Below are positions 1-45,718 of a stretch of DNA of 64,000 bases, one piece after another. The stretch is from positions 21,417 to 85,416 of the forward strand of contig JAISAE010000080.1 of the NCBI GenBank assembly GCA_031266875.1. Reading direction: 5' to 3'. The notes under the pieces were generated by a model. It made no database searches. It was not told the DNA's origin and saw only the letters and a program-made list of their open reading frames with translations. This DNA comes from Treponema sp. (GTDB lineage Bacteria; Spirochaetota; Spirochaetia; Treponematales; Breznakiellaceae). A program made the translations under genes and the position numbers. The first letter of the stretch is position 1. Each line of letters starts with the position of its first letter.

Positions 1-211
1 CGGGGTTCTGGCTCTGATACAGGTCGATGGCCTTCTGGGTCAGCTCGATACGTGTGGAGTTACCCCAGAATGCCCAGCGGACGGTTGTCGTTCCCGCTGT
101 TGTGGCGCTACCTGTTGATGGCGAAGACGTGGAACCCTGTCTAGTCCCACCGGCGAAAAGCATCGCGCTTGTAGTCATAAGCGCGATCAGTACGAATGCA
201 ATTTTCTTCAT
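1..211 (-). CDS. Extracellular solute-binding protein of a sugar ABC importer, N-terminal part (runs off window)
   Basis: Minus-strand reading from ATG at 211 after AGGAGG: MKKIAFVLIALMTTSAMLFAGGTRQG...TTVRWAFWGNSTRIELTQKAIDLYQSQNP; signal peptide; adjacent to two permeases. Confidence 0.75.
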   Translation of the reverse strand, partial: MKKIAFVLIALMTTSAMLFAGGTRQGSTSSPSTGSATTAGTTTVRWAFWGNSTRIELTQKAIDLYQSQNP

Positions 212-24329: not shown

Positions 24330-24334
24330 GGATT

Positions 24335-25927
24335 TTACAGAAAATCAAGCAGTGTTGTTAAATACTTTTCAAATATAATTTCAATCGTATAATTGTTCTG
24401 AAACAGATTATATCCATCCGGTATTTGTGTTTGAGTTATCGTAATATTGTTCGTATTTTCAAAACTGATTACTACGCTTCCAATTTTAACTGACAAGTCC
24501 CGCTTTTCCGGCGTATATGACGGCGCTATATGCAAATAAGCTTTGCCTTCCAAAACTTTACCGGCTAAGAAATCGGTAATCACAATTTTTCTGTCGGAAA
24601 AAGTCCATTGCCGTTTATGAATTGTCCCTATTCTTTTATACCCGTCATGTTCGGCAATAACACTTTGCGCCGTATCTTCAATAATCCGCACATGTGCCCG
24701 CCGCGCCGCCCTAAACGACGACCATACCTCAGACGAATCCCGGTCCAGCACGGTAACCGTATTATGCGCGGCTGTTCCACGTTCATGCGAACGGACTTTT
24801 CCAGAATCATACGTTGAGATTCCGGTGTCAATAATAAGCGGTTTATGATAGGCATTAAGCACAAAATTAAAAGTATCCGCGTGGGCGTGACCAGGCTGAT
24901 ACGACGGCCCAATCCGGCCAATATCAAGCATACATTCGTATACGTCATTCTTAAAACAGCGATAGCCCGATTCTGACAGTCTCGCCGGATTATAACGATC
25001 AATATCTCCTTGCGCGATTATCTTCAAATCTAAAGCATATTGGTCGAGCTGCTCCGTTGTTGGCGCGATTCCTGGAACCGCGTCATTTAATAACGGAATT
25101 GCACCATTCGCAAATGTTATGGCATTGAGCCATGACAGCATCCTCTTTGCTTTATCTTGCATAAAGGCAAGCAGACATTCCTGCTTGTCGAATCGCTTGT
25201 TATGCTGTGCCAGATTTATCGTGTCCAGCAAGCGATACAGCATAATCTGGTGATACATGGGGCTTAGTTCAAAATGAGCGCCGTCCGGCAATAGCTGCTC
25301 TTGTAATTCCGAGTGTAACAGCGTATATGCTTTATGGTAAAAAGCGCTGTCCTGAAAATAAAAAGCGCCAAAAAGCAGTGAAAAAGCGTTTTCAAGCAAA
25401 TGGTTGCCCAATACATGATATTCCAGGTTTCCAAACAATATTTTATAAGCGCCATATAAGAAGGCGTCTATCCGTTCATCCTGTATCGCGTGTCTTGTTA
25501 TAAAACGTATCCAGAATATATTACGCAGTGATATTGGATAAGAATCGTATCCAATACGAACTTCTTTATAGTGATCGATAAAATCGTTAATTAATTTTAA
25601 TCCGGTTTCCTTGTCAAATCCGTATTGATGCAAAAACTCAAAGTAGTTTAAATTATACGCCCACAGCATACCATGGCCAGCGTAGTTCCAGTCAATTTTA
25701 CCGTAAAATTGATATGCCTTATTCAAAAAAACAAATTTCATATCATTAAAGTAAGTTGGATAAGAATAAAGACTGTCCTTCATATTCAATAAAGCAGGTT
25801 TCTTCGGATAAGTTTTTATGCTCGCGGATTTATTTCTTTTGCATATACTATAAAATAATCGAAAAACTATCTGTTTAAATTTTAGAGTCTGTAATGTGCG
25901 TACATATATACATATTTTAGTCGGCAT
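24335..25927 (-). CDS. Heparinase II/III-like protein
   Basis: 'GPSYQPGHAHADTFNFVLNAYHKPLIIDTGISTYDSGKVRSHERGTAAHNTVTVL'. Confidence 0.9.
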   Translation of the reverse strand: MPTKICIYVRTLQTLKFKQIVFRLFYSICKRNKSASIKTYPKKPALLNMKDSLYSYPTYFNDMKFVFLNKAYQFYGKIDWNYAGHGMLWAYNLNYFEFLHQYGFDKETGLKLINDFIDHYKEVRIGYDSYPISLRNIFWIRFITRHAIQDERIDAFLYGAYKILFGNLEYHVLGNHLLENAFSLLFGAFYFQDSAFYHKAYTLLHSELQEQLLPDGAHFELSPMYHQIMLYRLLDTINLAQHNKRFDKQECLLAFMQDKAKRMLSWLNAITFANGAIPLLNDAVPGIAPTTEQLDQYALDLKIIAQGDIDRYNPARLSESGYRCFKNDVYECMLDIGRIGPSYQPGHAHADTFNFVLNAYHKPLIIDTGISTYDSGKVRSHERGTAAHNTVTVLDRDSSEVWSSFRAARRAHVRIIEDTAQSVIAEHDGYKRIGTIHKRQWTFSDRKIVITDFLAGKVLEGKAYLHIAPSYTPEKRDLSVKIGSVVISFENTNNITITQTQIPDGYNLFQNNYTIEIIFEKYLTTLLDFL

Positions 25928-25942
25928 AAACAGCCTGCGTAA

Positions 25943-27112
25943 TTATTCAAAAAACATTTCTGATGTATATTTTTCTATTTTTAGAAAAATATCTTTTTCA
26001 TTGTTATCAAGACGGCGATCCAAGTTCTTTTTTACCAGTTCCAATAATTTTTCTTCTTCCCCAATAAAAACATAATCCTGCTTATAGTCGCTTAAAATAC
26101 CGGGTCCCTTTAATCCCCAGGTTTTATCAAAGTAACCTATACAGGAGGTCCCCGCTGACAGCGCAAGAAGGATGGAATGAAGACGCATTCCAATTAACAA
26201 ATCACAGGTTCTATAAAAATTCCGCAATGCTAACGGATCATTGCTTTCATAGAAAAGAACATTTTCGGTGTCGCTAAAATATTCTTGGACACGCTTTGTA
26301 GAAAGTGTATCTTTTTCCGTTTGCACGACAAAAATAATCTTATAATTATTTTTTAAGAGCATACCGGTTATGGCAAGCAATACAGCTTCAATTTGTTTTA
26401 TCTTTATATCGGGCAAATCATAATAGTCTCCAATAGTGCTGGCCCGTATAGTAACAGCAACTTTTCTGGTTATGATTCTTTGTGTGTATGCAACGGGCCG
26501 CATAAAAAACACCAGATCGGTATTTAAGAAAATGGAAGACTTCGGGAAATATTGCTTAAATACGTCGTAAGACAACGCTTCCCGGCAGTATACTTTTTCA
26601 GCGGCGTTTAATACCGGCTTTATTGTTCGCCTTCCCAGCCAATTGAATTCGGTGGTAGACTGCGGCAAAATAACAAACGGAACTTTTGCTTTTTTAGCAA
26701 GTCTTAATGGATATAGCAGCGCCGTCATCCTGATAAAATCAGTTACGGTAGTACAGTGTAACGAGTTCCCGCCATTAAAATATACTGCATCAAAGTATTT
26801 TATTTGCTTTCTTAAAACAGGCTCAGGCATAATGCCCATAAGCTTTAATAATCCTGAAAAATACCGCATAACAATGGTAAGCCTTGAAGCGTTCCGGTCA
26901 AATTCAAACGGACACGGCAATACTTTTATTAAAGGATATAATTTTTTTAAATATGCGGAACTTTCTCTAAAATAGCTATCATTCGCGTGCCGCGACACCA
27001 CGGTTAATTCGATCTCTTTCCGCAAAAGCAAATCAATTGCCCCAAGGGTCATAGCCAGATCGCCGGCGTTTTTCTTGCCTGAAAAAGCATAATACAAAAG
27101 AATCTTTTTCAT
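25943..27112 (-). CDS. Polysaccharide pyruvyl transferase family protein
   Basis: 'GAIDLLLRKEIELTVVSRH', 'YFNGGNSLH', 'CDLLIGMRLHSILLALSAGTSCIGYFD'. Confidence 0.85.
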   Translation of the reverse strand: MKKILLYYAFSGKKNAGDLAMTLGAIDLLLRKEIELTVVSRHANDSYFRESSAYLKKLYPLIKVLPCPFEFDRNASRLTIVMRYFSGLLKLMGIMPEPVLRKQIKYFDAVYFNGGNSLHCTTVTDFIRMTALLYPLRLAKKAKVPFVILPQSTTEFNWLGRRTIKPVLNAAEKVYCREALSYDVFKQYFPKSSIFLNTDLVFFMRPVAYTQRIITRKVAVTIRASTIGDYYDLPDIKIKQIEAVLLAITGMLLKNNYKIIFVVQTEKDTLSTKRVQEYFSDTENVLFYESNDPLALRNFYRTCDLLIGMRLHSILLALSAGTSCIGYFDKTWGLKGPGILSDYKQDYVFIGEEEKLLELVKKNLDRRLDNNEKDIFLKIEKYTSEMFFE

Positions 27113-28293
27113 TTTTCCACCATAGTATTAACGTTCATTGGTTTTCTCAGTTTGTCAAAACAACGCCGGACAATCTTTTGCAGTAACATCCTAAAAATAA
27201 GCAGATAATCAGTGTATTTTTTTACAAGGGTATCAAACGGCATCGTATCCAAATGCTTAAAAAACAAATCCCTATTCCTATGCCTTCCCTTGAAACACTT
27301 GAATGTGGTGCGGGCATATTCTTTTGACAATTCACTATTTATATAAACATATTTACATTGCGCTTTGATATGTTCAAAGAGTTCTTTGCCCTTTTCCGAA
27401 TTGAGGATAACCAATGAAGTGCCATATCGGTCATACATACCGGGAAAATATTTTTTAATTTTCCAGAAATCGCCAAGTGTTATATCCGAACCCTGATTTA
27501 CCGGCCTGAAATTACATTGAAAACAGGAAGGCCGGAGCGATATGCCGTATCCATAGGATTTATGAAAATACAGATCGTTTTTACTTACATATCGTACGCC
27601 ATTCTCAAATTCAAGCAACATATACATGGGATTCCAATTAGGATTTTTATACCTGAAACTTATGCGCACCGGTTTCGAGTGATATATGCTTTTTTGATAT
27701 GCAAGATATTTCTCCCAAACTTTTGGGGATGAAGCGCCGCCGCAAATAAGATCAAGACAATAAAGATTAGTATATTCAGATTGCAGATACGCTTTCAAAC
27801 CGGCAATCTGGCACGGAGTTCCGCTAAAAAGCGCTTTTTGTCCCTCGTCAAGTCTTTTTTTGCATGCCTTGTAACTTTCACCTATGCTGCTTTGGACATA
27901 CTTTGAACCCCGAAAAGCCGCAAGTCCTTCAATACTCTCAGCAGCGTCATGTTGCACATGAAAATCAGCGTCAAACGCCGCGCCAAACACGGCTCCATGT
28001 TGACGAATGACTGTTTCCGCTAACAGCGTAAACACGCCCCCCGAAGAACTGATCTTTCGGGTTGCCGCATCATTATTTATCACCGCGATTAAATTATCAG
28101 GCTGAATCTTTTGTTTTTCCCGATGTAACGCGGGGCAAATTTTTTCACACAACCCACAGTTTTTACACTGTAACGTATCAATGCGAGGATATAAAAACCC
28201 CTCGTGATCGGGCGTCATGCTGATACAGTTCCAGGGACATATACTATAACAAGCATGACAGCCATTACAAAGAGAATTTCTCACTACACTCAT
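27109..28293 (-). CDS. Fe-S protein, coenzyme F420 hydrogenase/dehydrogenase beta subunit-like
   Basis: Two 4Fe-4S motifs CNGCHACYSICPWNC / CKNCGLCEKICPA; 'SSGGVFTLLAE', 'FSGTPCQIAGLKAYL'. Confidence 0.85.
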   Translation of the reverse strand: MSVVRNSLCNGCHACYSICPWNCISMTPDHEGFLYPRIDTLQCKNCGLCEKICPALHREKQKIQPDNLIAVINNDAATRKISSSGGVFTLLAETVIRQHGAVFGAAFDADFHVQHDAAESIEGLAAFRGSKYVQSSIGESYKACKKRLDEGQKALFSGTPCQIAGLKAYLQSEYTNLYCLDLICGGASSPKVWEKYLAYQKSIYHSKPVRISFRYKNPNWNPMYMLLEFENGVRYVSKNDLYFHKSYGYGISLRPSCFQCNFRPVNQGSDITLGDFWKIKKYFPGMYDRYGTSLVILNSEKGKELFEHIKAQCKYVYINSELSKEYARTTFKCFKGRHRNRDLFFKHLDTMPFDTLVKKYTDYLLIFRMLLQKIVRRCFDKLRKPMNVNTMVEK

Positions 28294-28322
28294 TTTGCTT
28301 ATCCTGCTAAAAAACCAAGGAA

Positions 28323-29639
28323 TTAGCGTATATCGGAAATCACCAGCCGCAGCTTTCCTGTTTTGGTGCGGGGTATTGTTTCAACATAATTGATCGTTAT
28401 AAAAACCGAGTCATCTATACGTTCTCTTATTTCTTGCATCAATTGTTTTTCATCTTCAACGGTATAGTCCTTTCCCTTAACTATATCAAAATCTATGTGA
28501 TATAAATCTTTTTGATGAATTTGCGCTTCTTTAATGGCTGTTAGAGGTTTAAACAGGTGGTTTAACTGTCCCAATTTCACGCCGTTTGGCAATGTAATAG
28601 CATCTTCTATTCGCCCATCAATGCAGCTAATTTTTCCATCCATGAATTCCGCAATATCGCCGGTATCATACCGAATCAATGGAAAAGCCTCATTTGAAAA
28701 ACCGGTGCCGACTATTTTATATAAATTTTCATTTCCTTCTATGGGAAGAAATTCAATATAGCAATAATCATTATTAATGATAAATTCATCCTGTGCGTTT
28801 TGGTATATACTTGCGACTCCTTCCGTTAATCCATAATGCTGGCATATTCTGGCATTGGGAAATATCCTTTTTAGAATATCTTTTTGGTGTCCCAATAAAG
28901 TCTCGGACGATAAGGAGATATTTTTTACGCAACCCAGGGGAGGCAAGTTGTTTTCATATATTAGTGAAGCTAAGAGAGATATTTGTGAAGGATACCCGGT
29001 CAACCATTTTAGCTGCCTTTTGTGGATTTCGTTATAATAGCTTTCGACGGTATTGCCGCTTAAATGAATAGAGCTAAACATAACCTGTTTTCCGGGTTTA
29101 TTTATTCTCCAAAAAGGCGGATTTTTGTTTTTAGATGAAATAATTTTCTTGGTGCCGAACCAGCCGCACCACCAATCCATTTCAATCCCATTCAAACGCC
29201 GGTATCGCCAATTTACCGCCCATTGCTTATTTTCCATCTCAACGGTATAGGGCAAGGCCATGCCGCTTCCGGTTGACCCGCTGGTTTTCATTTCAATGGT
29301 CTTTGCCTTGCAGGTTGGATTAACAAAGAGTTTGACATCTTTTTTCACTATTTCTTTGTTAATTACCGGCAGCTTCTTTAGTTCCGTATAAATATCCCCG
29401 GCATTAACATTAAATCCACATTCCCTGAATAACTTCTTATAAAACGGGGTTTCAGAAACCGCGTGCAAAAAGTTTTTCAAACACTGATCAGGCTGGTACT
29501 CTCTTTTCTGAAATTTTTCCAGATATTCATAAAAATTCCGGTTAAACCTTCTCCGAAAAATTAAGTAACCTTTTACAGAGCAAAATAAATTTTGAATAAC
29601 AACCGGAGAATTATCGTAGATTCTTTCTATACATGACAT
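28323..29639 (-). CDS. Phenylacetate-CoA ligase/CapK-like adenylate-forming protein
   Basis: 'KTSGSTGSGMALPYT', 'HYGLTEGVASIYQN', 'IRYDTGDIAEF', 'IPRTKTGKLRLV'. Confidence 0.85.
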   Translation of the reverse strand: MSCIERIYDNSPVVIQNLFCSVKGYLIFRRRFNRNFYEYLEKFQKREYQPDQCLKNFLHAVSETPFYKKLFRECGFNVNAGDIYTELKKLPVINKEIVKKDVKLFVNPTCKAKTIEMKTSGSTGSGMALPYTVEMENKQWAVNWRYRRLNGIEMDWWCGWFGTKKIISSKNKNPPFWRINKPGKQVMFSSIHLSGNTVESYYNEIHKRQLKWLTGYPSQISLLASLIYENNLPPLGCVKNISLSSETLLGHQKDILKRIFPNARICQHYGLTEGVASIYQNAQDEFIINNDYCYIEFLPIEGNENLYKIVGTGFSNEAFPLIRYDTGDIAEFMDGKISCIDGRIEDAITLPNGVKLGQLNHLFKPLTAIKEAQIHQKDLYHIDFDIVKGKDYTVEDEKQLMQEIRERIDDSVFITINYVETIPRTKTGKLRLVISDIR

Positions 29640-29645
29640 TATATT

Positions 29646-29688
29646 TCCTCCTATAGGACTTTCATAAGTCCTTCATGGTATATAGTTA
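29646..29688. repeat. 43-bp direct repeat, copy 1
   Basis: tcctcctataggactttcataagtccttcatggtatatagtta; one mismatch to 31295..31337. Confidence 0.97.
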
Positions 29689-29692
29689 GGGG

Positions 29693-30169
29693 TTACGGCA
29701 AAGATCGTTGGGGCATTTCACTTATTTTTATAAAAAGTTCAACATCAGTTTTTATTATTTCCCATACATCTTCAATTTCTTTTATTAAAGGTCCCATTTC
29801 ATTCCAATCTAATTCTGAACTATACGCATGCCTTATAAAATGCCTAAACAATAAATATTTTTCCAATTTCTTTTTTACATCATTCCTGATAATTTTTATA
29901 TTTCTTGAATTATTTCCAAATGCCATTTCAAATAATGTTTTATGCCATTTAAAATCATTGGGCAATTTTTCATTTAAATATTTAAAAATTAATACAATAA
30001 CACTTTCAACACCATTATAAAACGAATGTAGTACCTGCGCCGCCGCTGTTATTTCTATAATATCAGGTTCCTTTATCTTGCATAAATCCAATAAAGGTTT
30101 TACATCCGTCAATGATTTTTCTATCCGTGAAATCTCATGTTCGATTTTTATTTTTACATTATCATCCAA
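29693..30169 (-). CDS. HepT-like HEPN-domain protein (putative toxin)
   Basis: All-helical ORF with RHFIRHAY (R-x4-H-x-Y), overlapping a MNT-type nucleotidyltransferase gene. Confidence 0.75.
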   Translation of the reverse strand: MDDNVKIKIEHEISRIEKSLTDVKPLLDLCKIKEPDIIEITAAAQVLHSFYNGVESVIVLIFKYLNEKLPNDFKWHKTLFEMAFGNNSRNIKIIRNDVKKKLEKYLLFRHFIRHAYSSELDWNEMGPLIKEIEDVWEIIKTDVELFIKISEMPQRSLP

Positions 30170-30455
30170 TTTGAATAACTTCGCCTATCCTGTTGAGCAT
30201 TGAATAAAAATCAGAATTTAAGTCAAAATCTACTAAATCAATTTTATGTTCAATGTCAAAATATAATCTTGAATATACGTCAAAAAATTTGCCTTTTGGG
30301 AGTCCTTTAATACCAATATCTATATCAGAATTCTCATGTATTTTTCCTGAAACCAGTGAGCCAAACAAAAAAACTGATTGGCAGCCTTCACTTTTGAGTA
30401 AATTTGTTGCAATTTCAATATCTTTTCGATATTTTGAAGGAATATTGAGTTCCAT
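30162..30455 (-). CDS. MntA-like minimal nucleotidyltransferase (putative antitoxin)
   Basis: 'FLFGSLVSGKIHENSDIDIGI' = GS-x10-D-x-D. Confidence 0.85.
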   Translation of the reverse strand: MELNIPSKYRKDIEIATNLLKSEGCQSVFLFGSLVSGKIHENSDIDIGIKGLPKGKFFDVYSRLYFDIEHKIDLVDFDLNSDFYSMLNRIGEVIQIG

Positions 30456-30569
30456 GTTCAGATTATATCTTATTTTTTCATTATGTCAACTTATGTCTTT
30501 GTATAATTTATTATACATTTTTGCCCCTAACGGTGCATATCTAAAAAATAGCAACTATTAAAGAACAAA

Positions 30570-30636
30570 AAGCTGACCCATTGACGCTCAGAGCGAACCC
30601 GTCAAACCATTAAGCTGACCCATTGACGCTCAGAGC
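30570..30636. repeat. Two direct copies of a 25-mer (30570..30594 and 30612..30636), 42-bp period
   Basis: aagctgacccattgacgctcagagc exactly twice. Confidence 0.95.
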
Positions 30637-30648
30637 TTATTGGTCAGG

Positions 30649-31158
30649 CTAGGAACCGGCGCTCTCACCCGCCTCGGAGCCTTCCCCGCCACCCTTGCGG
30701 CTCCGGCTGGGCAGCCGGCTCGACAGGTCTTCTAACTGTGCCTTTGCGCCGGCCACATTCTCCCGCGCCGCAAGTTTCAGCGCGTTGTAGTACACGTAAG
30801 CCGCTTCAAGCGCGTCGCTCCCCTCGGCGGAAAGCGTGTCCTTGAGAGTAACGGCAAACTGTTCGACCTTGTCTATGAGGTTCCACAACTCGTGCGTCGT
30901 TTCAAGATGTCCGGTGAACGCCGCCATATCAAAGTGTCCGGGGCGAAACTCCGGGTTCACCTTAGCGTAAGCCTCGGCGTGTTCCACAAACGACTGGGTT
31001 TTCGGCCCCATCTTCGCCATACGCTTCCGGTCGTCCAGGGTGAGCGGGCGCAAATACGGCTCAAGCGGCGCGATGAGGGCGGTCAGCGCCGTTTCCGCCG
31101 CGTCGATTACAGCTGCGGGTATCCTCTTCGTCAGAGTGTCTTCGTTTGATTCAGGCAT
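30649..31158 (-). CDS. Hypothetical protein
   Basis: Starts MPESNEDTLTKR after GGAGGCACTT; soluble helical protein; track ORF extends to 31257. Confidence 0.6.
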   Translation of the reverse strand: MPESNEDTLTKRIPAAVIDAAETALTALIAPLEPYLRPLTLDDRKRMAKMGPKTQSFVEHAEAYAKVNPEFRPGHFDMAAFTGHLETTHELWNLIDKVEQFAVTLKDTLSAEGSDALEAAYVYYNALKLAARENVAGAKAQLEDLSSRLPSRSRKGGGEGSEAGESAGS

Positions 31159-31294
31159 AAGTGCCTCCTTGTTCGTAACATTTTCGGGTAGTATACTCTT
31201 CTCCTTGCCAATGTCAAGGGCAGAACGAGCGCATACCCAGCCGGAGCTTGCCTTCACGGTTAAAAATTCTCATCAGACACCGGACAGGATCGTA

Positions 31295-31337
31295 TCCTCC
31301 TATAGGACTTTCATAAGTCCCTCATGGTATATAGTTA
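31295..31337. repeat. 43-bp direct repeat, copy 2 (encodes the C-terminus of the adjacent glycosyltransferase)
   Basis: tcctcctataggactttcataagtccctcatggtatatagtta. Confidence 0.97.
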
Positions 31338-32427
31338 CCGGAGAGCCTTGTTGTATCTGTTCTACGATGCGTAAAAAACGTTCGGCGGCAAGCTCCGGCG
31401 ACCAATTATGTACTATCCACTCCCGTGAATAATGCTTAAATTTTTCCAAAATCTCTCTGTTGTCAATAAGATACAGCAGCTTTTCAGCCAATTGCCGGTA
31501 ATTGCCCGGCTTAAAAACAAAACCATTCACGCCGTCTTCTATCATGGTTCTAACAGAACCCGCCATGTTAGAACCAATCACCACGCAGGATTCCGTCATG
31601 GCCTCATTTACAACAGTTCCCCAGCCTTCATGCCCGGAACTCGGAAGAACATATATATCCGATCCCCACATTATTTTTTTTATTTTGTCCAGGGGCTGAA
31701 AATTGAGTATCGTTATATGGTCCGATATCGCTAATGTAGCGCCCAGACGTATGATTTTTTTCTTTTGTTCCCCTTCGCCAACAAGAATTAATTGTGCTTC
31801 TTTTTTTTGTTTCAGTATAAGCGCGAATGCCTTTAATAAAGTATCAACCCTTTTCAATCCCACCATGTGGCCGCACCAGAAAATGTGTATTTTATTCGGC
31901 AAAAAAAAGGAATTATGCTCTATGGATGAGGTTTCAGATGGTGAAAAATAACCAAAATTAAATATCCGGCCTGTGCATATATGTAAAAAATTGAAATCCC
32001 GCGCAGCGTAGTGTCCCTGAGCTAAATAATAAAATAATGGAAAAGAGGATAATTTCTTTAATTGAAAAACCAACTTTGCCTTGCGAGGATGGACTAAACG
32101 AAATTTTCCAAAAGGAGGCTTGAACCATCTTTCAGACGCATAAAAAGTTATTTTATTATGTTCCAGCCTCTTTTGCATCAAATGGAAATATTTTGACATT
32201 CTGCATACAACGACATCGGCTTCGTAAAAATGACGTTCAAATTTTTCTTTGTCGCTGTTTATCGTAAATATCCACGGCTCATTAAGAGCGGCAAAAGACA
32301 TTCCCTTCCTTCTTGGGTTATCCAGTTGGCCTGCCGCGAGAAGAACTTCTTCATTGGTTGCTTTTAACACCTCCGCTATAAAAACCGTGATATGATAATT
32401 AACCACTTCTTCTACAAAGAGTATCAA
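31300..32427 (-). CDS. Glycosyltransferase family 4
   Basis: 'IHIFWCGHMVGLKRVDTLLKAFALIL', 'VLPSSGHEGWGTVVNEAMTESCVVIGSNMAG'. Confidence 0.88.
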   Translation of the reverse strand: MILFVEEVVNYHITVFIAEVLKATNEEVLLAAGQLDNPRRKGMSFAALNEPWIFTINSDKEKFERHFYEADVVVCRMSKYFHLMQKRLEHNKITFYASERWFKPPFGKFRLVHPRKAKLVFQLKKLSSFPLFYYLAQGHYAARDFNFLHICTGRIFNFGYFSPSETSSIEHNSFFLPNKIHIFWCGHMVGLKRVDTLLKAFALILKQKKEAQLILVGEGEQKKKIIRLGATLAISDHITILNFQPLDKIKKIMWGSDIYVLPSSGHEGWGTVVNEAMTESCVVIGSNMAGSVRTMIEDGVNGFVFKPGNYRQLAEKLLYLIDNREILEKFKHYSREWIVHNWSPELAAERFLRIVEQIQQGSPVTIYHEGLMKVL

Positions 32428-32430
32428 ACC

Positions 32431-33582
32431 TTATCCCTGCGTTTTAAATAGAATGCTGGCATACGTGTATCCGTCGCTGACAAAAAAGCATTTAATACAT
32501 AAAATACCAAAGGTTATCAAAAATATAACGATAAGCAATAGTTCTTTTTCATATCGAAAGAACGCCGCCCTTTCAAGCAGGGTTTTCACTAAAAAATAGA
32601 TCGGATATACCAATGAAACCTCAAAATAATGCGTTACCCTCATTAACAAAATGGTGTTTAAGGCTATTAATTTAAGGCAAAATGAAAAAATTCCTATGGC
32701 AAACAAAACCCGTTCTTTTCTGGCGCGTATATATTTATAACATAATAAAGACAAAAAATAAACCGGCAAATTACTATACCGCACCAATCTTGTCGTCAGC
32801 GGTATCCTGGTTGCGGCATATTCACCCCCTATATAGTGAGCATAAGGCGCAATATATTCCAGCCAGGATAGGATAATTTTTTCCAGATTAATGACAGACA
32901 GCAAAGACGAACCCGCTAACGCAAGAAATAAAACAGTAACATTCGATTTTTCAAACAGTATAGCCAAAAAGTAAAACGGCGCGAGAAAGAGGAGCGATTG
33001 ATGAAATCCCGCGCCAATTAAGATGCATAGAACATACAAAACCAACTTTCGTTCAATAATACATATAATTGCAAGAAGAAAAAAGCTGACGGCTATATAC
33101 TGTCTTATCGCATTAAATTGATTATAAAATGATATGGAAATAGTAAAATATAAATATATATACGCATATAAATACTTTACATCCAGATACATAATATAGG
33201 CAAATAATCCCGCCATAGTAATAAAGGCGCAAAGTATAATGCCAAGCTGGGGGTCTAAATTATTGGTTATAACAAAAATCGCTAAACCTGAAAAAAATAT
33301 TTCATTTTTTGCGGCGCCAAGCCACCCCGCAAGTTTCTTATCAGAAAAATAAAGTAAATATGAAAAATAATCTTTGCCAACATTATATTGCAGCCCTATA
33401 AACAAAACCCATATCCCAAATGTTAGCAAAAACAACAGCCTGGGATTACTAAGGCGGGAAGGTCTTTTGACGGTAACTGACGTATTGTTTTTTATGCCCA
33501 GCGACACACAAAAAGCAACATTTATACATAGAAATATAAGATATGCCATATCTATCGTATGATAGTGCTCATTCTTTGACAA
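32431..33582 (-). CDS. EpsG/Wzy-like polysaccharide polymerase
   Basis: Multi-TM; 'FNAIRQYIAVSFFLLAI', 'GAGFHQSLLFLAPFYFLAI'. Confidence 0.8.
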   Translation of the reverse strand: MSKNEHYHTIDMAYLIFLCINVAFCVSLGIKNNTSVTVKRPSRLSNPRLLFLLTFGIWVLFIGLQYNVGKDYFSYLLYFSDKKLAGWLGAAKNEIFFSGLAIFVITNNLDPQLGIILCAFITMAGLFAYIMYLDVKYLYAYIYLYFTISISFYNQFNAIRQYIAVSFFLLAIICIIERKLVLYVLCILIGAGFHQSLLFLAPFYFLAILFEKSNVTVLFLALAGSSLLSVINLEKIILSWLEYIAPYAHYIGGEYAATRIPLTTRLVRYSNLPVYFLSLLCYKYIRARKERVLFAIGIFSFCLKLIALNTILLMRVTHYFEVSLVYPIYFLVKTLLERAAFFRYEKELLLIVIFLITFGILCIKCFFVSDGYTYASILFKTQG

Positions 33583-34694
33583 CCAGCGTCAAAACTAAAG
33601 TAATCCATATAATCATTTTGTATCTGTTTGTTATCAATCATATTATTTTTATAAAGGTCCATAAGACATTTGATTCCTTTTGTAAAAGTTTCTTCATCAT
33701 CATATATCTGAAAATACGATTTATTAAAAAAATAATCATAACCTCTTGCAGAAACTTTATGTGCTAATACTGGAAGACCCTGTCTAAGACCGTCCATAAT
33801 CCTTAATTTTAGACCGCCCCCAACATTTGTTGGACAATAATATATGATTCCATATTTAATAACATCTTCCATGTTTTCCGGATTTCGTATAATCGTTATA
33901 GTCCCAGTTTCTTTTTGAGCAATACCCATAATTGTTTTATTTGGATTTCTTCCGGCAAAAAGTATTTTGACATTTGGCAATTCTTTGCATAACAATACGT
34001 AATAATGCTTATAAAAATCTTTAATCCCACATTCAGTCTGCCGGCTTCCCAAGGATCCGGTAATTACCATTGTATAAGGGCCGGACACCTTTTCTATAAG
34101 GGGAAGCGCCCGTTGAAAAGGTTCAAATGTTCCAATTACGGCCCTTTCGCCATTACATTTCCCATATTGTCTTTCAAAAAGCGCCATATCCGACTTAGTC
34201 AAAAATAAATTCAAATCGGCCTGATAATAAGCGTTCTTTTCATTCCTGATAACATAATAGGGAAAAAATCCCCGGAAGGAAGACAAAGTTTTATTATCTA
34301 CAGCATATTCTCTTTCATAATTGTGATGAATAACAACAACTTTGATATCAAATGATTTAATGCCATCAACCATATCTCCGGCATAAGTACCGCCATTTAT
34401 TATACATAATTTATATCGTCCTGGATACTTTTTTAAATGTAAAAAAATATATTTTCTAAAACGATGTAAATTTCCAAATATGGAAGATAGTATTGCAATT
34501 ATTTTTTTACGCCTCGGTACGCCAAAATAGTTCCCTTTAGTTACTGTATTACCAATTGATTCTTGAGGCAGAATTAAATCAATATTCTCTGAGCCATAAA
34601 CATACTTTACCGCCTCATAATACGCCAAAACAGCCAGCCCTCCGCCAAAACGAACAAACAAGTCATTTGTTGCAATATAAAGTATTTTATTCAC
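33552..34694 (-). CDS. Glycosyltransferase
   Basis: Rossmann-like, 'VVVIHHNYEREYA', 'VGGGLKLRIMDGLRQGLPVLAHKVSARGYDY'. Confidence 0.78.
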   Translation of the reverse strand: MNKILYIATNDLFVRFGGGLAVLAYYEAVKYVYGSENIDLILPQESIGNTVTKGNYFGVPRRKKIIAILSSIFGNLHRFRKYIFLHLKKYPGRYKLCIINGGTYAGDMVDGIKSFDIKVVVIHHNYEREYAVDNKTLSSFRGFFPYYVIRNEKNAYYQADLNLFLTKSDMALFERQYGKCNGERAVIGTFEPFQRALPLIEKVSGPYTMVITGSLGSRQTECGIKDFYKHYYVLLCKELPNVKILFAGRNPNKTIMGIAQKETGTITIIRNPENMEDVIKYGIIYYCPTNVGGGLKLRIMDGLRQGLPVLAHKVSARGYDYFFNKSYFQIYDDEETFTKGIKCLMDLYKNNMIDNKQIQNDYMDYFSFDAGCQRMSTIIR

Positions 34695-34817
34695 ATCTTC
34701 CCCGAAAATATTGCACTATAAGGCACGAATAAATCATAATAACCGCTTAAGAAAAAACTACTATAGCTTTTTAAATCAAATAATTTCCGATTTATTCTTC
34801 TGATAATGTTAATATTA

Positions 34818-36320
34818 TTAGAAAGAAGAAAATAATGATTTGAAATGCAACAATATATATCCTATGCCTGGGACAGCCAATATTATTCCCACCTTAAATG
34901 CATATTTAATCCAGTCAAAATTGGATATGCCCGAATACGGAATGGCACATTTTATTATGTATATAGCTATAAAATAGCATAATCCCCATAGCATGATCCT
35001 GATTCCGGTATATTTAACTTTATCATTAAGAATCTTTGTATGAGAATAAATTATTATATCGACTGTACGATATGCAAAAGAACAGACAGAACCAATTAAT
35101 ACGCCACTTAGTCCATATTTAATCACAAAAAAAAGTGACGCTATAATATTAATCATAACTTCCAGCATCGATCTATTTTTCGTTTCTTTAAAATGTCCTG
35201 CGGCGCTTATTAATAAATCAGCAGGCACTCGCAATTTATTGGCAATTCCTACCACCACAAACAAAGTCGCCAACATTGGTTGTATATATTCTGCATCAAT
35301 CATATTTTTTGTGTATAGTTTCATAAAAGGAATAGTCAAAATATAAGCGCATGAATATATCCAACCTAATATAATAAAATACATTGTCTCATATTTTTGA
35401 TAAATCGAATTTATTCTTTTCTCAAATAATAATTTGCCAAAAAAAGCTTGCATTCCAGTAGAAATGCACCCAATTAAATTGCCAAGACCAACAAAAACCA
35501 CTGAGTATACGGCATAAATACTGACAGTATTCAAATCACAAAATATACTTAATAAGACTATTGGCGAATTAAATATAATCAATCCACCTATTTGATGTAT
35601 AAGCACATCCCATTTCTGTTGCAGTATATTAACATTTGGCGAATTAAATATATAAAGGTTATGATATTTTTGTTTAATGTAAGAAACTATCAAAACATAC
35701 TTTAATAAAAAAGAAAATGAAATTACTGATTGCATCATTAATATTGATGATATATTAAATAACTTTATAAGCGCTATTGAAATAACAGTATTTGAAATAA
35801 TTTCTATGGTATGTATGAAGGCAACTACATAATTCTTTCTATCAGCAACAAGTAATACCCGATATTTGCCGATTAAAAAAAAATCCGCTATGCCTGATAT
35901 GCCCAGAATTAATACCATTAATCTTGATAAATTATTTTTTTCTTGACTTTTAATAATAAGTGGGTATATAATTGCAAGAATAATAACTAATCCAGTAAAT
36001 AAAAAACCAGATTTGTTGTAAAAATGTCTGGTTGCAGATAATATTTCATTTCTAGACTGGATATTTTTCTCTGCTAATGGTTTATATAATATGGCAATTG
36101 ATGCGCCTCCTATCCCTGATTCCACAACACCCAGATATGCAATAAACTGTTTTATAGATGAGGTCATACCATTTAATTCTGAACCAAAGGTTTGAACTAT
36201 CAATGGCGGTAAGATAAAACCGCAAATTATATTTACTGTTTGTAATAATAAATTGATTGAAACATTATATACTACTTCTTTTTTTTGCGATATACGATGT
36301 ATATTGTTATTATGTATCAT
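34818..36320 (-). CDS. Polysaccharide flippase (Wzx-like)
   Basis: 500 aa, ~12-14 TM, 'VYNVSINLLLQTVNIICGFILPPLIVQTFGSELNGMTSSIKQFIAYL'. Confidence 0.85.
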   Translation of the reverse strand: MIHNNNIHRISQKKEVVYNVSINLLLQTVNIICGFILPPLIVQTFGSELNGMTSSIKQFIAYLGVVESGIGGASIAILYKPLAEKNIQSRNEILSATRHFYNKSGFLFTGLVIILAIIYPLIIKSQEKNNLSRLMVLILGISGIADFFLIGKYRVLLVADRKNYVVAFIHTIEIISNTVISIALIKLFNISSILMMQSVISFSFLLKYVLIVSYIKQKYHNLYIFNSPNVNILQQKWDVLIHQIGGLIIFNSPIVLLSIFCDLNTVSIYAVYSVVFVGLGNLIGCISTGMQAFFGKLLFEKRINSIYQKYETMYFIILGWIYSCAYILTIPFMKLYTKNMIDAEYIQPMLATLFVVVGIANKLRVPADLLISAAGHFKETKNRSMLEVMINIIASLFFVIKYGLSGVLIGSVCSFAYRTVDIIIYSHTKILNDKVKYTGIRIMLWGLCYFIAIYIIKCAIPYSGISNFDWIKYAFKVGIILAVPGIGYILLHFKSLFSSF

Positions 36321-36589
36321 AAATTTATATTATTAGATGATCTGTTGTACGGTTTCAAGTTTATTTTAATATATGCATGATTATCTTAACCTCCGCAATA
36401 AGGAATTCAAATCTGAATACCACGTCAATTGATTGTTAAGATTGCTATATCCACGTTCAGCAGAAATAAGAGCGGCTTTACAACCTCCATTTACTCCAGC
36501 CTATATGTCCCGATCATCTTTTGCTCTTCATTAATTTAAATTTGCACATCATACCAGTGAAGCAGCTTATTTAATATTAAAACCTAATA

Positions 36590-37714
36590 CTAAAAAATAT
36601 TGATTATTTTTTTCCATGCTGTTCCATCCCCGTAAGGGTTATGCGCTCTGGCCATTGCCTGATATGTGCCTTCATCAGACAGGAGCCGCTCAACATTCTC
36701 TACTATTGCCGCGCTGTCTGTTCCCACCAGCCGCACCGTGTCGGCGTCCACCGCCTCGGGGCGCTCGGTGGTGTCCCGCATCACCAGCACCGGCTTCCCA
36801 AGCGAGGGGGCTTCTTCCTGCACGCCGCCGGAGTCGGTCAAGAGCAGGTAACAATGCCGCATCAGGCACACAAAAGGGAGATAATCAAGCGGCGGAATCA
36901 GATAAATGTTGGTGATATTTGCTAAAAGCTCATATACCGGCTTTTGTACATTCGGGTTCAGATGGACAGGATACACAATGTCTGTATCGGGGTGAGTACG
37001 GGCTATCTCTTTTAATGCGTTACAAATACGCAAAAAGCCTTCGCCAAAGTTTTCACGCCGGTGGCCGGTTACCAGAATATAGCGCTTGTCCGCCACAGGC
37101 TTGTATCCTTTTTCCTCCAATTCTTTGAGTATCTGTAGGCGCAAGTCAGGAGTAGTATTGATAATTTCTGTCGCCATCAACAGGGTGTCTATCACCGTGT
37201 TTCCCGTAACCGTGATATTCGCGCTTATTTTTTCCTGTAACAGATTATTCCGCGAAGTTTCGGTCGGCGCAAAACAATAATCGCAGAGACGGTCAGTTAG
37301 CTGCCGATTCATTTCTTCTGGCCAGGGGGATGCCATGTTATAGGTCCGCAGGCCCGCTTCCACATGGGCTACTTTTATGTGCTGGTAAAACGCGGCAAGT
37401 CCGGCGGCGAGAGATGTGGTCGTGTCGCCATGCACAAAGACAATGTCAGGTCTAGCGTCTTTTAATACGTCGCGCATACCAAGCAGAACTTTTGAGGTAA
37501 TGTCGTATAAGTCCTGATTAGGGGCCATGATGTTGAGGTCATAATCAGGTTTTATGTCAAAGACCGCTAATATCTGATCCAGCATCTGCCGGTGCTGGCC
37601 AGTTACGCAGACTTTGACATCAAATTGATGAGGATATTTTTGAAAGGCTTTTACCACCGGCGCCATTTTTATGGCTTCGGGACGGGTGCCAAATACCAGT
37701 AATATTTTTTTCAT
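36590..37714 (-). CDS. wecB: UDP-N-acetylglucosamine 2-epimerase (non-hydrolysing)
   Basis: '[17 protein letters not shown]', '[10 protein letters not shown]', 'HVEAGLRT', '[28 protein letters not shown]'. Confidence 0.95.
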
Positions 37715-37746: not shown

Positions 37747-37834
37747 GATTTTCGTGGAATAAGAAAAAATAGATAGAACAAAATCCATGTTAATTCGCGT
37801 AATCCATGGACTTTTTTCTTATTCCACAAAAATC
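37747..37834. repeat. Imperfect inverted repeat (23-bp arms, ~42-bp loop) overlapping the wecC 3' end
   Basis: gattttcgtggaataagaaaaaa / ttttttcttattccacaaaaatc. Confidence 0.9.
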
Positions 37835-39010
37835 AAACTCAATCTTTCCAATGGCTGCCGGTATGTTCAGAAATTCCTTATGCCGTACCAGCCATACCAC
37901 AATATCCGCCTTTTGATACGCTTCCTGATACGGCGCTAAATTAAACATTTTATGGCTTTTGATGTTGGGTTCCACCACCAGCACGTCCGCGTTGGCTTCG
38001 GAGATTATCCGCGAGGTGATGTACTTCGCGGGAGACTCGCGCAGGTCGTCAATGTCCGGCTTGAAGGCCAGGCCCATGCAGGCGATAAGCGGCGGGCGGC
38101 CTGTGTTGTGTGTGAAATTCACGCAGGCTTCTAAAGTATGGTTGGCGCACCAGTCAGCTTTGTAGTCGTTGGTTTCACGGGCGCGTTTGATGATTTGCGC
38201 CTGTTCGGGGAAATCGGACACGATGAACCAGGGGTCTACCGCGATACAGTGGCCGCCTACGCCGCAGCCGGGCTGTAATATATTTACGCGGGGATGCTTA
38301 TTCGCCAGTTCGATTAAATCCCATACATTAACGCCGGCCTTATTGCATATCATCGATAGTTCGTTGGCAAAGGCGATTTGCGCGTCTCGTGAGGAGTTTT
38401 CAGTGAGCTTGCACATTTCCGCAGTGCGGGCGTTTGTCTTGTGCAGGACACCTTTTACAAATTGGGCATAAAAGGCCGCCGCTTTGTCGGCTGATTCGGG
38501 ATTCAAGCCGCCTATCACGCGGTTGTTGTGTTCTAATTCATATAGCACATTTCCCGGCAATACCCGCTCCGGGCAATAGGCGATATATACCTTATTTTTT
38601 AATTCCGGGCGCAGTTTGAAGATGAGGTCTGCCATTTTCTCGGTGGTCAATACCGGCGAGGTGGATTCTATCACAAAAAGATTGCCCTCTCGCAGAAACG
38701 GGATCACCATGCGTGTGGCTGATTCCACGAATGATATATCAGCGCGGTGATTTTGCTTAAAAGGAGTGGGAACAACGATGAAAAAGGCGTCCGCTTCTTC
38801 GGGCTGCGATGTGGCTTTCAACGCGCCCTTTTCCACGACTTGTTTTACCAGCGCGTCAAGTTCAGGCTCAACAATATGTATTTTCCCCTGATTGATAATA
38901 TTCACCACTTCCGGGTTTACATCCACACCAGTAACGCTAATGTCCTTGCTTGCCACAACTGCGGCGGTAGGAAGGCCGATATAGCCTAGACCCATGAATA
39001 TTACTTTCAC
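37790..39010 (-). CDS. wecC: UDP-N-acetyl-D-mannosamine dehydrogenase
   Basis: 'GLGYIGLPTAAVVAS', 'PERVLPGNVLYEL', 'CKLTENSSRDAQIAFANELSMIC', 'GVGGHCIAVDPWF'. Confidence 0.95.
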   Translation of the reverse strand: MKVIFMGLGYIGLPTAAVVASKDISVTGVDVNPEVVNIINQGKIHIVEPELDALVKQVVEKGALKATSQPEEADAFFIVVPTPFKQNHRADISFVESATRMVIPFLREGNLFVIESTSPVLTTEKMADLIFKLRPELKNKVYIAYCPERVLPGNVLYELEHNNRVIGGLNPESADKAAAFYAQFVKGVLHKTNARTAEMCKLTENSSRDAQIAFANELSMICNKAGVNVWDLIELANKHPRVNILQPGCGVGGHCIAVDPWFIVSDFPEQAQIIKRARETNDYKADWCANHTLEACVNFTHNTGRPPLIACMGLAFKPDIDDLRESPAKYITSRIISEANADVLVVEPNIKSHKMFNLAPYQEAYQKADIVVWLVRHKEFLNIPAAIGKIEFDFCGIRKKSMDYAN

Positions 39011-39498
39011 TGTTTTATTCCTCGACCAAATAGTATTTTGAAAAACAGAAATGAAAAGAGCAGACCCTACAAATGTGGAATATAAAACGTTGACATACTA
39101 GTAAACAGGGGATTAATCAGACAGCTCTATTACATCTTGATATAACACGTCCAGCAGCATAACACGTTTTCATACCTATGCCTGAAAAAAATGTACTATG
39201 ATTGTTATCTTCTAACCAAACCCATCCGCTATGTTGCCAAGCGAAATAGGTGGTATTGCTGAAGGAGGACTTTGCAGTGTTGAAAATATTCACAGAAAAA
39301 CACCCTCATCAGGCGTCTTTCTTAACAGTATAAATGTTTCCACAAATACACCAATAGCCACTGAATCCATGCCGTAAGCCGTAACATTATCGGTCATACA
39401 ATTCAGATTATAATAAAACTCAAAACTACAGGCATCTTTAATACAGATGCCAAAATAAACTCAAACCACCAGTCTAAAAGATATACCTCTCCGACGGC

Positions 39499-39703
39499 CT
39501 ATTCATACAGACAACACAATAACGAGAAAACACAAAACACCTGCAACAGTGTTTTGAAAACAAGAGTATAGGAACACTTATATAAAGGAAGAAAGAAAGT
39601 GAATTTTCTAGAGATACATTGCAATTGTCCCATGGGGGGGGGGGGGGGGGCAGGCTATAGACAGATCTCTAACACTATACGAAATATGAGGCTTATTTAA
39701 CAT
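39499..39703 (-). other. Short ORF(s) with perfect SD whose frame depends on a C17 tract (putative phase-variable leader)
   Basis: ATG 39703 preceded by AAGGAGGG (39709..39716); C17 on the minus strand (G17 at 39634..39650 on +). Confidence 0.5.
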
Positions 39704-39804
39704 GTCTACCCTCCTTCTAAACGCACCACAGACGGCGCTCAGATTCTCACCATACGACCAAACCGCAGGCGACTTATAAGTACACCCTTACAAGTATAAA
39801 TATA

Positions 39805-39834
39805 TATATATCACACACTGAATTCTTTTGTCAA
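39805..39834 (-). promoter_or_regulatory. Putative sigma-70 promoter reading toward wecC
   Basis: TTGACA (39829..39834) - 18 bp - TATATA (39805..39810), minus strand. Confidence 0.6.
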
Positions 39835-40244
39835 GCGTTTTACTAAAAAATGTGAAAGAGAATTGATAGATTCATCGGTATAGGTCAAAGCGAACCTTGC
39901 ACCGGTGGCGTAGTTCCTGGGCCTATCACCTTGCTGGCCCAGGTCAAAGAGAGCGGCAGCTTGTCGCGCATGAAAGGCCAGTTCATGCGCGGGCTAAGGT
40001 TGTCGCTCTCTTTTTAGTCTACCGCGTACAGACGGCACGGTGTTTCTGCCCGGCCATCACGGAGCGGTTGTCATAGCGCCGCGCTCCATGAGGCTTCCCG
40101 CAGCAAGGACTTCGCCCGCTCACTTGCTGGGCGAAGTGAAGAAATTTGCCCCCGACGCCTATAAGGGCGGGGACAACAAAATCATTATCACAGGCATTGC
40201 TCTTTCGATTGGCCGGGAGCGGTGAGCTTAAACATTAGGAGGAA

Positions 40245-40885
40245 ATGCTGCCTCTGGAGTTTCTACACACATCTCTGGAAGTTCTACACATATCTCTGGA
40301 GTTTCCAAAGCTGCCTCTGGAGTTTCTACACACAGCTCTAGAAATTCTACACATAGCTCTGAAAACTCTACACACATCTCTGAAGTTTCCAAAGCCATCT
40401 CTGGAAGCTCTACACACACCCTGGAGTTTCTACACACAGCTTTTGAGTTTCCAAAGCCGTATCTGGAAACTCTACACACATCTCTGGAGGTTTCAAAGCT
40501 ACCTCTGGAAGTGCTACACACATCTCTGAAAGATCTACACATATCTCTGGAGTTTCTACATACACCTCTGGAGTTTCCAAAGACGTCTCTGGAAGTTCTA
40601 CACATACCTTTGGAGTTTATAAAGCCATCTCTGGAGATTCTACATATACCTCTAGAAGTTCTACACACAGCTTTTTGAGTTTCCAAAGCCGTATCTGGAA
40701 GCTCTACACATATCTCTGGAGGTTCCAAAGCCACATCTGGAGTTTCTACACACATCTCTGGAGGTTCCAAAGCCACATCTGGAAGTGCTACACATATCTC
40801 TGGAAGTGCTAAAATTGGCTTGAAAAGGCTTGGAGATGGATGTATACTTTTCAAAGTTGGCTTTGGAAGTGCTAAAGGTGGCTTG
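40245..40885. repeat. Tandem array 3, 21-bp period, consensus ~TCTACACACATCTCTGGAAGT, about 29 units
   Basis: Read directly; begins at an ATG preceded by AGGAGGA. Confidence 0.95.
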
Positions 40886-44068: not shown

Positions 44069-45718
44069 ATGAAAAAATTGGAAGTTACGCTACTCACGCT
44101 GACGGTCTGCATATTTGTGGGTTGTAGTAACAAAAGTAATCAGACCGCGCAAAATAGTGTTTCAGGGGGGGGGGGGGTCGTTAGATCAAACGTCACTACC
44201 GCGCAAAGTGGACTGAATTTTACTGGTTACCCCATGAATGCAACGGATCAGACCATAACTTGGTTCGCCAGTAACGGTTATTTGCCGAATACGGCGTATG
44301 GTTCGGCCAAAGAATCGCCATTTCACTCCGGATTGCAGGATATGCTTGGTGTGAAAATTGATTGGCAGTTCCCGGTTACCGGCACTGATACCAATCAGGC
44401 GTTCAATCTTGTCATGGCGAATGAGAAGCTGCCGGACGTCATTTTTCATGGTCTTATGAAAGACGCGCAACGGTACATGGACGAAGGTACTATCTACGAC
44501 CTGACCCCATACATTCAGCAGTGGGCGCCAAACTACTACAAATGGCTCCAGACCAATCCCGAATACGACCGTACATTCAAAACCGACGAAGGCAAGTATT
44601 ATGGTTTTGGTTTCTTCCGCGAGGCTGGTGGCTGGAACGACAGCTATCTGGGGCCGGTGGTACGGAAAGACTGGCTCGACGAATGTGGTCTGCCCATACC
44701 GGAAACCATCGGAGACTGGGACAAGACGCTGCGGGCATTCAAGGACCGCTATGGAGCCGTGCTGAGTTTTGCGCGTTCCCGCGTGGCTGACTACGGAAGC
44801 GGCATCTCTGGCGCATTTGGAGCGTATACCATGCTTACCTTCAGGCTTTATGTTGACGATAACCACAAGATTCAGTCGGCAACGTCGCAGCCTCAGTGGA
44901 GGGATTACCTTAGCAAGCTGAACGAGTGGTGGCGCGACGGCCTGCTGGACCAGGACTTTATGACCAATGACGACACAATGACGCGAACCAATGCCTTAAA
45001 CGGCAAGATGGGCATATCCATTACCTCAATGGGACAGCTCTCCAACTGGGTGAATGATGCTGAAAGCTCTGGTAACGGCGCTCAGTGGATCGGGCTTCAG
45101 TACCCCCATGGCGATGATGGTACATTGAGCATGATTCCGGGTGGTTATGGCATTGGAACCAACGCCGCAGTCATTACCACAAGCTGTTCTCAAGAGAAGC
45201 TGGAACTCGTGATGAGAGCGCTCGACTACGCCTACAGCGACGAAGGCAATCTGTACTGGAACTTTGGTAAGCAGGGTGTGTCGTGGGAGTATGACGCGAA
45301 TGGGCAGCCCGCCTATCTGCCACTCGTTACAAATGATCCTGATGGATTAAACAACGCCATCGACAAGTTCGGCGGCTCAACATGGAGCGGTAACTGCATT
45401 CAGGCGACGCTGTTGCTGTACCTCAAGAACACTCAGCAAGCCATTGACGCCAACGACCTGTGGTTCTACCCGAATGAGGCGGTAAGCGCCAAGTGGACCG
45501 TGCCGCCGGGCGTTACACTGACGCCGGACGAGAGTAGTCGTGCCGCTGAACTGCAAAATACCATCAGCACCTATTCCAATGAAATGGCGATCAAGTTCAT
45601 CACTGGTCAGGAGCCGTTCAGTAACTTCGATAGCTTTGTCGCACGGGTCAACCAGATGGGCATGCCGGAACTGCTGAACATTAACCAGACCGCTTACGAC
45701 CGGTATCTCTCCCGTTAA
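44069..45718 (+). CDS. Extracellular solute-binding lipoprotein (LplA-like) containing an in-frame G13 tract
   Basis: Lipobox ICIFVGCSN; SBP; upstream of two LplB/LplC-type permeases; G13 at 44165..44177 (SGGGGVV). Confidence 0.85.
   Translation: MKKLEVTLLTLTVCIFVGCSNKSNQTAQNSVSGGGGVVRSNVTTAQSGLNFTGYPMNATDQTITWFASNGYLPNTAYGSAKESPFHSGLQDMLGVKIDWQFPVTGTDTNQAFNLVMANEKLPDVIFHGLMKDAQRYMDEGTIYDLTPYIQQWAPNYYKWLQTNPEYDRTFKTDEGKYYGFGFFREAGGWNDSYLGPVVRKDWLDECGLPIPETIGDWDKTLRAFKDRYGAVLSFARSRVADYGSGISGAFGAYTMLTFRLYVDDNHKIQSATSQPQWRDYLSKLNEWWRDGLLDQDFMTNDDTMTRTNALNGKMGISITSMGQLSNWVNDAESSGNGAQWIGLQYPHGDDGTLSMIPGGYGIGTNAAVITTSCSQEKLELVMRALDYAYSDEGNLYWNFGKQGVSWEYDANGQPAYLPLVTNDPDGLNNAIDKFGGSTWSGNCIQATLLLYLKNTQQAIDANDLWFYPNEAVSAKWTVPPGVTLTPDESSRAAELQNTISTYSNEMAIKFITGQEPFSNFDSFVARVNQMGMPELLNINQTAYDRYLSR

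Follow-up and report, generated by a model that had tools for sequence, protein, structure and literature searches.

This locus raises the question of whether a short translated leader that runs into a long homopolymer of cytosines may switch the polysaccharide genes lying downstream of it in a member of the genus Treponema. The window, i.e. the whole stretch of 64,000 nucleotides analysed here, corresponds to contig C53 of a 2.6-Mb draft genome consisting of 112 contigs. The elements of the leader and its immediate upstream neighbour are the following:

39851-40117, minus strand: repeat element directly 5' of the promoter, with copies at six other genome sites
39805-39834, minus strand: sigma-70-like promoter of the leader, TTGACA-18-TATATA, read directly
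39704-39800, minus strand: conserved 5' leader RNA with two predicted hairpins and the Shine-Dalgarno (SD) sequence AAGGAGGG at its end
39709-39716, minus strand: SD sequence AAGGAGGG, read directly
39608-39703, minus strand: leader ORF as assembled (C17), MLNKPHISYSVRDLSIAC-PPPPP-HGTIAMYL*, the closed frame
39671-39682, minus strand: S-Y-S-V codons, the window form of a genus-wide [A/S]-Y-S-[L/V] leader motif
39634-39650, minus strand: C17 homopolymer, the putative phase-variation tract, with prolines in every frame

The −35 box TTGACA (39834-39829) and the −10 box TATATA (39810-39805) are separated by 18 nt and carry 10 of the 12 consensus bases. This promoter is absent from the list of the promoter scanner because the scanner requires a T in the last position. 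Its sequence TTGACAAAAGA...TGTGATATATA is also kept in two other species. The ATG (39703-39701) is followed by MLNKPHISYSVRDLSIAC and then by the C17 tract, which lies 53 nt past the start codon's first base; the SYSV codons, which assign the leader to the motif-bearing family described below, are found 10 codons before the tract. The first-pass annotation had described promoter, SD sequence, ATG and C17 tract from the same minus strand, and direct reading shows this description to be accurate to the base. The 5' leader RNA folds with −29.8 kcal/mol (z −1.7), only weakly above shuffled sequences, and a search of the window against Rfam returned two tRNAs only, with no known RNA family matching the leader. 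The repeat upstream of the promoter is about 270 bp long, has long inverted repeats and is dispersed in the genome (window 39851-40117, L042, L044, L045, L046, L047 and L048:8940-9184). It occurs at several contig ends and at some sites just 5' of TTGACA promoters; it is absent upstream of the leader in the relatives G001 and G002.

The tract itself is far longer than expected by chance. The genome contains 27 C/G runs of at least 10 bases, most of them 12-22 long and internal to contigs, and for a genome of 2.6 Mb with the 49% G+C of the window only about 0.1-0.2 runs of at least 12 and about 1e-4 runs of at least 17 would be expected. Two runs at contig ends, G84 in L028 (end of G000:C78) and C22TCCGC6GCGGGC13 in L052:1-57, resemble artefacts of two-colour sequencing, and such contig-end runs should therefore be left out of tract counts.

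The length of the tract decides in which frame translation would leave it. As assembled, C17 leads into PPPPPHGTIAMYL* with a stop at 39610-39608, about 7-8 codons past the tract (+23 relative to the tract). With C18 the frame continues as ..WDNCNVSLENS.. up to a stop at 39476-39474 (+157), and with C16 or C19 as MGQLQCISRK.. up to 39501-39499 (+132). Translation of the frames thus gives the same three outcomes that had been noted before. The two open continuations and the modules and genes behind the tract are:

39499-39633, minus strand: open frame reached at C16 or C19, 44 codons past the tract
39474-39632, minus strand: open frame entered with C18, 52 codons past the tract
39533-39556, minus strand: terminator-like hairpin CAAAACACTG-TTG-CAGGTGTTTTG followed by TGTTTTCT, inside both open frames
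39431-39451, minus strand: second terminator-like hairpin before wecC, −9.9 kcal/mol
39309-39633, minus strand: post-tract module "family U", common to G001:C155, G001:C90 and three G004 loci
37790-39010, minus strand: wecC-like UDP-sugar dehydrogenase with GTG start, first gene of the downstream operon (PF03721/PF00984/PF03720)
23120-37714, minus strand: rest of the polysaccharide cluster, with wecB (PF02350), Wzx-like, EpsG/Wzy, glycosyltransferases, polysaccharide pyruvyl transferase, FrhB-like and heparinase II/III-like genes

When the same 240 nt are shuffled with dinucleotides preserved, a layout of two open frames and one closed frame (44, 52 and 7 codons) arises with P = 0.0015. An ordinary contingency gene with the tract inside its ORF, in which one frame is long and two are closed, was also considered for this locus and dismissed, as the longest continuation comprises 52 codons.

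The first hairpin is located at +78 to +101, and the C17 stop falls 51 nt short of it. With −8.9 kcal/mol and a weak U-tail it does not beat shuffled sequences, and neither does the second one with its poor U-tail. At the matching place stronger hairpins with a U-rich tail are present in L049 (−19.7 kcal/mol), L144 and L150. The start of wecC lies 623 nt past the tract. That the leader is fused directly or coupled translationally to wecC was rejected, the frame that overlaps the GTG being interrupted by many stops; an ATGA-type overlap is likewise absent, with the leader frames ending at +132 and +157. The first-pass annotation had placed wecC, wecB and further polysaccharide genes downstream in the same direction with no other strong promoter in front of them. 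The genes are indeed there (wecC, wecB, EpsG/Wzy, glycosyltransferases, pyruvyl transferase, heparinase-like), and from the tract to wecC the promoter scan yields no promoter-like site on the minus strand.

The leader is conserved within the genus. From promoter to tract (window 39852-39634) the identity is 86% to G002:C9 and 80% to G001:C27, and SD sequence, ATG, leader and C-tract are found at the same place in both. These two carriers are GenBank MAGs of Treponema sp. (Cd354_bin115 and Pcl387_bin137), for which the naming style of the isolates suggests an origin from termite guts. The G001 contig ends inside the tract and that of G002 76 bases past it. Mixed tract lengths would be expected to have this effect on short-read assembly, and low coverage would have it equally. 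The pattern of this leader (leader family A) is matched in the GTDB genome contigs by the two known relatives alone, and among viral contigs there is no match. A diverged relative exists in G001:C90 / L122, the G001:C90 copy having a C20 tract. The family U module sits behind other leaders in G001:C155 and at the three G004 loci, and in G001:C155 leader family A and the post-tract module are paired differently; leader and post-tract halves have thus been combined in different ways. Among 40 genomes searched, wec genes occur in only one other (G009), which has no such leader and whose DNA upstream of the wecC relative is unrelated to it. Common inheritance of leader and operon is consequently unsupported, no other of the 40 genomes having both. 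In other species related modules precede other genes. The genomes compared are drafts of 55-83% completeness, so that absences are weak evidence.

The window leader is one member of a larger family of leaders with a YSL motif and a poly-C tract; next to ordinary tracts within genes, short leaders with C on their sense strand make up a second class. Tracts were collected from five species of the genus (G000-G004) and counted per genome in these and six further genomes. The motif [A/S/V/T/I]-Y-[S/N]-[L/V/P] is present upstream of 17 of 67 C-sense tracts, of none of 66 G-sense tracts and of 1.1% of random positions. One frame closed within 10 codons together with two frames open for at least 35 was found at 22 of 69 C-sense tracts and 1 of 72 G-sense tracts (P = 3e-7), a value which, like the other P values given here, overstates the independence of the loci, since these are partly paralogous; motif and layout were moreover first noticed in the data in which they were tested. 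Of 19 loci compared singly with dinucleotide shuffles, some of them picked because they showed the layout, 14 give a P of about 0.01 or less for it. The open frames past the tract run for about 40-70 codons in the family, and both closed and open states occur as assembled among motif-bearing leaders. Most of these leaders have TTGACA-16..18-TAGAAT with the ATG 6-7 nt past the −10 box, and most are therefore probably without a 5' UTR; the window leader differs from them in its longer UTR and strong SD sequence.

Orthologous tracts vary in length between species (18 and 19 in L153 and L056; 12, 13, 13 and 14 for the window tract at 44165). The latter belongs to a lipoprotein gene at 44069-45718, whose G13 run (44165-44177; 13, 12 and 14 in three other species) lies 32 codons past the ATG and is in frame as assembled; this is an ordinary in-ORF contingency gene, and such tracts, with one frame long and the two others closed, are frequent in G000-G004. 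Another repeated element of G001 and G004, "leader B" (TTGACA...TAGAAT...ATGGACTTGAGGAAACGCCAG with a variable hairpin), was seen at L076, L077, L081, L082, L086, L089, L091, L095 and L098. Behind it stand (CCCGGCT)n heptamer arrays that differ in length, and at the end of several of these there is a promoter-like sequence in convergent orientation. In the same taxonomic family, other genera (G014, G017, G005 and others) have up to 123 C/G tracts of at least 13 per genome, and at the 25 tracts sampled there no YSL leaders were found.

Two kinds of output are apparent behind the tracts of the family. The first is a terminator: in 8 of 22 post-tract regions a terminator-like hairpin beats every shuffle (P = 1.5e-4), the strongest belonging to L049, which shares its post-tract family with the window, and to family T (L119, L141, L142, L130 and L156). 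In family T the tract is followed by terminator-like hairpins with T-runs, their energies being −18 to −22 kcal/mol. One of them lies inside the open leader frame and keeps a constant length of 34 nt with compensating changes; gaps within it or ahead of it come in multiples of three. The second is overlap with the next gene: a post-tract frame ending in an exact ATGA or GTGA overlap is present at 20 of 66 C-sense tracts, at none of 71 G-sense tracts and at 7.6% of random positions. Behind such coupled leaders there are genes for HAMP/Cache receptor-like proteins (L112, L114, L143), fn3-like lipoproteins (L153, L056) and a CsgG/OMP-like protein (L123), in whose ortholog L054:4934 the frame ends directly before the ATG. 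Many other leaders of the family are coupled in this way; that of the window is not.

Some further loci touch on the same subject. In L048:4021-5722 (G000:C9) consecutive genes of CMP-sugar-type cytidylyltransferases include three with poly-C at their 3' end, and the read-through frame ends on the GTGA of the next gene; slippage-gated coupling inside this operon is possible. A C14 run at L061:6933-6946 (G000:C86) lies within a gene or at its end, and a frame there ends on the ATGA of the following gene. By eye the product of the gene with the run resembles a PRD-like transcription antiterminator, possibly a phase-variable regulator. Degenerate tandem repeats of about 20 bp (window 40228-40854 and L049:15115-15375) adjoin genes of an uncharacterised family of the MIPTKDSELRSW... 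type, which recurs behind YSL leaders.

For the window the best reading, though we regard it as evenly balanced whether it holds, is a phase-variable leader ORF, i.e. a contingency locus, of the attenuation type. Its own promoter and ribosome binding site would drive translation of a short peptide into the poly-C tract, and slippage would alter the tract by single bases. In the C17 frame translation would halt about 8 codons past the tract, short of the terminator-like hairpin by the 51 nt given above; in the other two frames ribosomes would cross the hairpin and 20-60 nt beyond it. Transcription into the wec polysaccharide operon would accordingly be lower in the short-leader state and higher in the long-leader states. 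As neither coupling to wecC nor an intervening promoter was found, the simplest account is attenuation of the wec operon, with the target in real doubt; and since the hairpin is weak and wecC distant and uncoupled, control of the operon, suggested by the position of the leader, is only plausible. Of the earlier proposal that the slippery leader controls the operon, the translated, slippage-prone leader with conserved promoter and ribosome binding site, whose tract length sets read-through of about 45-55 codons, has held up. The control itself is no more than plausible in view of the distance to wecC, the frame stops, the −8.9 kcal/mol hairpin and the related modules before other genes.

It is possible, if rather doubtful, that the leader is a real YSL phase-variable element but does not regulate the wec operon; the module would then be a relic or have been rearranged, its original target gene having been replaced, and wecC would have a weak promoter of its own. 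In G001 and G004 the family U module is followed, about 820-900 nt on, by a MIPTKD-type gene, and genes of this family are found in direct coupling with a YSL leader at L105 and L054:15676. The many stops in the window frame overlapping the wecC start fit this as well, and the pairing of leader family A and post-tract module in G001:C155 suggests shuffling at the tract. However, promoter, ribosome binding site and tract are intact and conserved, the two-open/one-closed layout is equally intact, and by sequence nothing else is transcribed from the leader to wecC, where no better promoter is seen. An unlikely variant of polarity dispenses with an intrinsic terminator: in the closed frame the naked C/U-rich RNA past the stop would load Rho, as the T-rich composition of the post-tract region (42% T in the first 150 nt) and the premature termination known from poly-C variation in Neisseria siaD might suggest; yet about 480 nt would be untranslated even in the open states.

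We hold it for improbable that the product matters, i.e. that a small phase-variable peptide (YSL ... polyproline ... hydrophobic tail) has a function of its own. The YSL motif is kept across otherwise different leaders and the post-tract peptide of family T is moderately constrained (dN/dS about 0.3-0.4), but two different frames are open past the tract, and in two coupled ortholog pairs with reliable alignments dN/dS is 0.44 and 0.65. Variation around the motif shows no clear third-position bias or coding signature either, so that the motif may partly reflect shared DNA ancestry. Very improbable is an artefact of assembly or sequencing (two-colour poly-G) or a chimeric join. A few contig-end runs do look artificial (that of L028 and the start of contig C53), but the window tract is internal, is present at the same place in two other assemblies and stands in a defined frame context common to many loci; in addition, the contig names of the relatives (k119) point to k-mers of 119 bases, long enough to span it.

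The attenuation-type leader switch can be compared with several known systems. In Treponema pallidum the poly-G tracts of the tpr genes lie in promoters and change transcription initiation. Slippage of a G/C homopolymer in a treponeme and surface-related targets are common to both, but the tpr tracts are promoter tracts, and a tpr-type switch is rejected for the window by the position of its tract within the translated leader ORF. The siaD gene of Neisseria shows poly-C phase variation in an enzyme gene with premature termination. Frameshifting at a C-tract, possibly with polarity on a capsule operon, is again shared, but the siaD tract is part of the enzyme gene itself and that of the window part of a separate leader ORF without a recognisable product. 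In the pil1 and pil3 loci of S. gallolyticus slippage of repeats in a leader peptide relieves a terminator, as proven by mutants (Danne et al. 2014; PMC3894217). There 22+3n GCAGA repeats lead to a stop 39-49 nt before the terminator and to low expression, and other repeat numbers to a longer peptide into or through the hairpin and to high expression (PMC3894217). The window has likewise a simple repeat in a leader-peptide ORF that has a promoter and ribosome binding site to itself, a surface-structure operon downstream, and one frame stopping tens of nucleotides before a predicted stem-loop which the other two reach or cross. It differs in having poly-C instead of GCAGA pentamers and a weak hairpin instead of a terminator of −18.7 kcal/mol, and the comparison is sequence-based on its side; furthermore, the organism is a spirochaete, the downstream operon is one for a polysaccharide, and the leader belongs to a genus-wide family in which a peptide motif recurs and ATGA coupling is frequent. 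A gene may also be translationally coupled to a short ORF upstream of it, as described e.g. for iraD (PMC5574718). The many YSL leaders ending in an ATGA that overlaps the next start codon resemble this type, but a slippery tract would act as the switch of their coupling, and the window leader is uncoupled.

The first-pass annotation had regarded control of a polysaccharide operon through a leader ORF as new. Slippage combined with attenuation is already proven for pil1 and pil3 (PMC3894217), so that the mechanism has precedent, and it is the family and its scale that appear new. In the literature searched, which lay largely outside subscription journals, we found no poly-C in an attenuator role, no shared leader family, no slippage-gated ATGA coupling and no such spread over surface and sensory genes. 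We incline slightly towards the view that in one genus of termite-gut treponemes dispersed slippery leaders, mostly with a leaderless start and the YSL motif followed by poly-C or heptamers, gate the next gene, either by a terminator crossed by ribosomes or by a leader frame whose end coincides with the next start codon (ATGA). The many surface and sensory genes thus switched at random by one shared module would include those for outer-membrane proteins, lipoproteins, chemoreceptors and glycan clusters. Among the papers found, pil1/pil3 is the one clear experimental case of leader-peptide phase variation with attenuation. If the view is correct, the leader-peptide attenuation switch would be a general strategy, which reaches chemoreceptors and outer-membrane proteins and is joined with translational coupling, and one closed and two open frames past a homopolymer would provide a simple signature by which it can be searched for in sequences.
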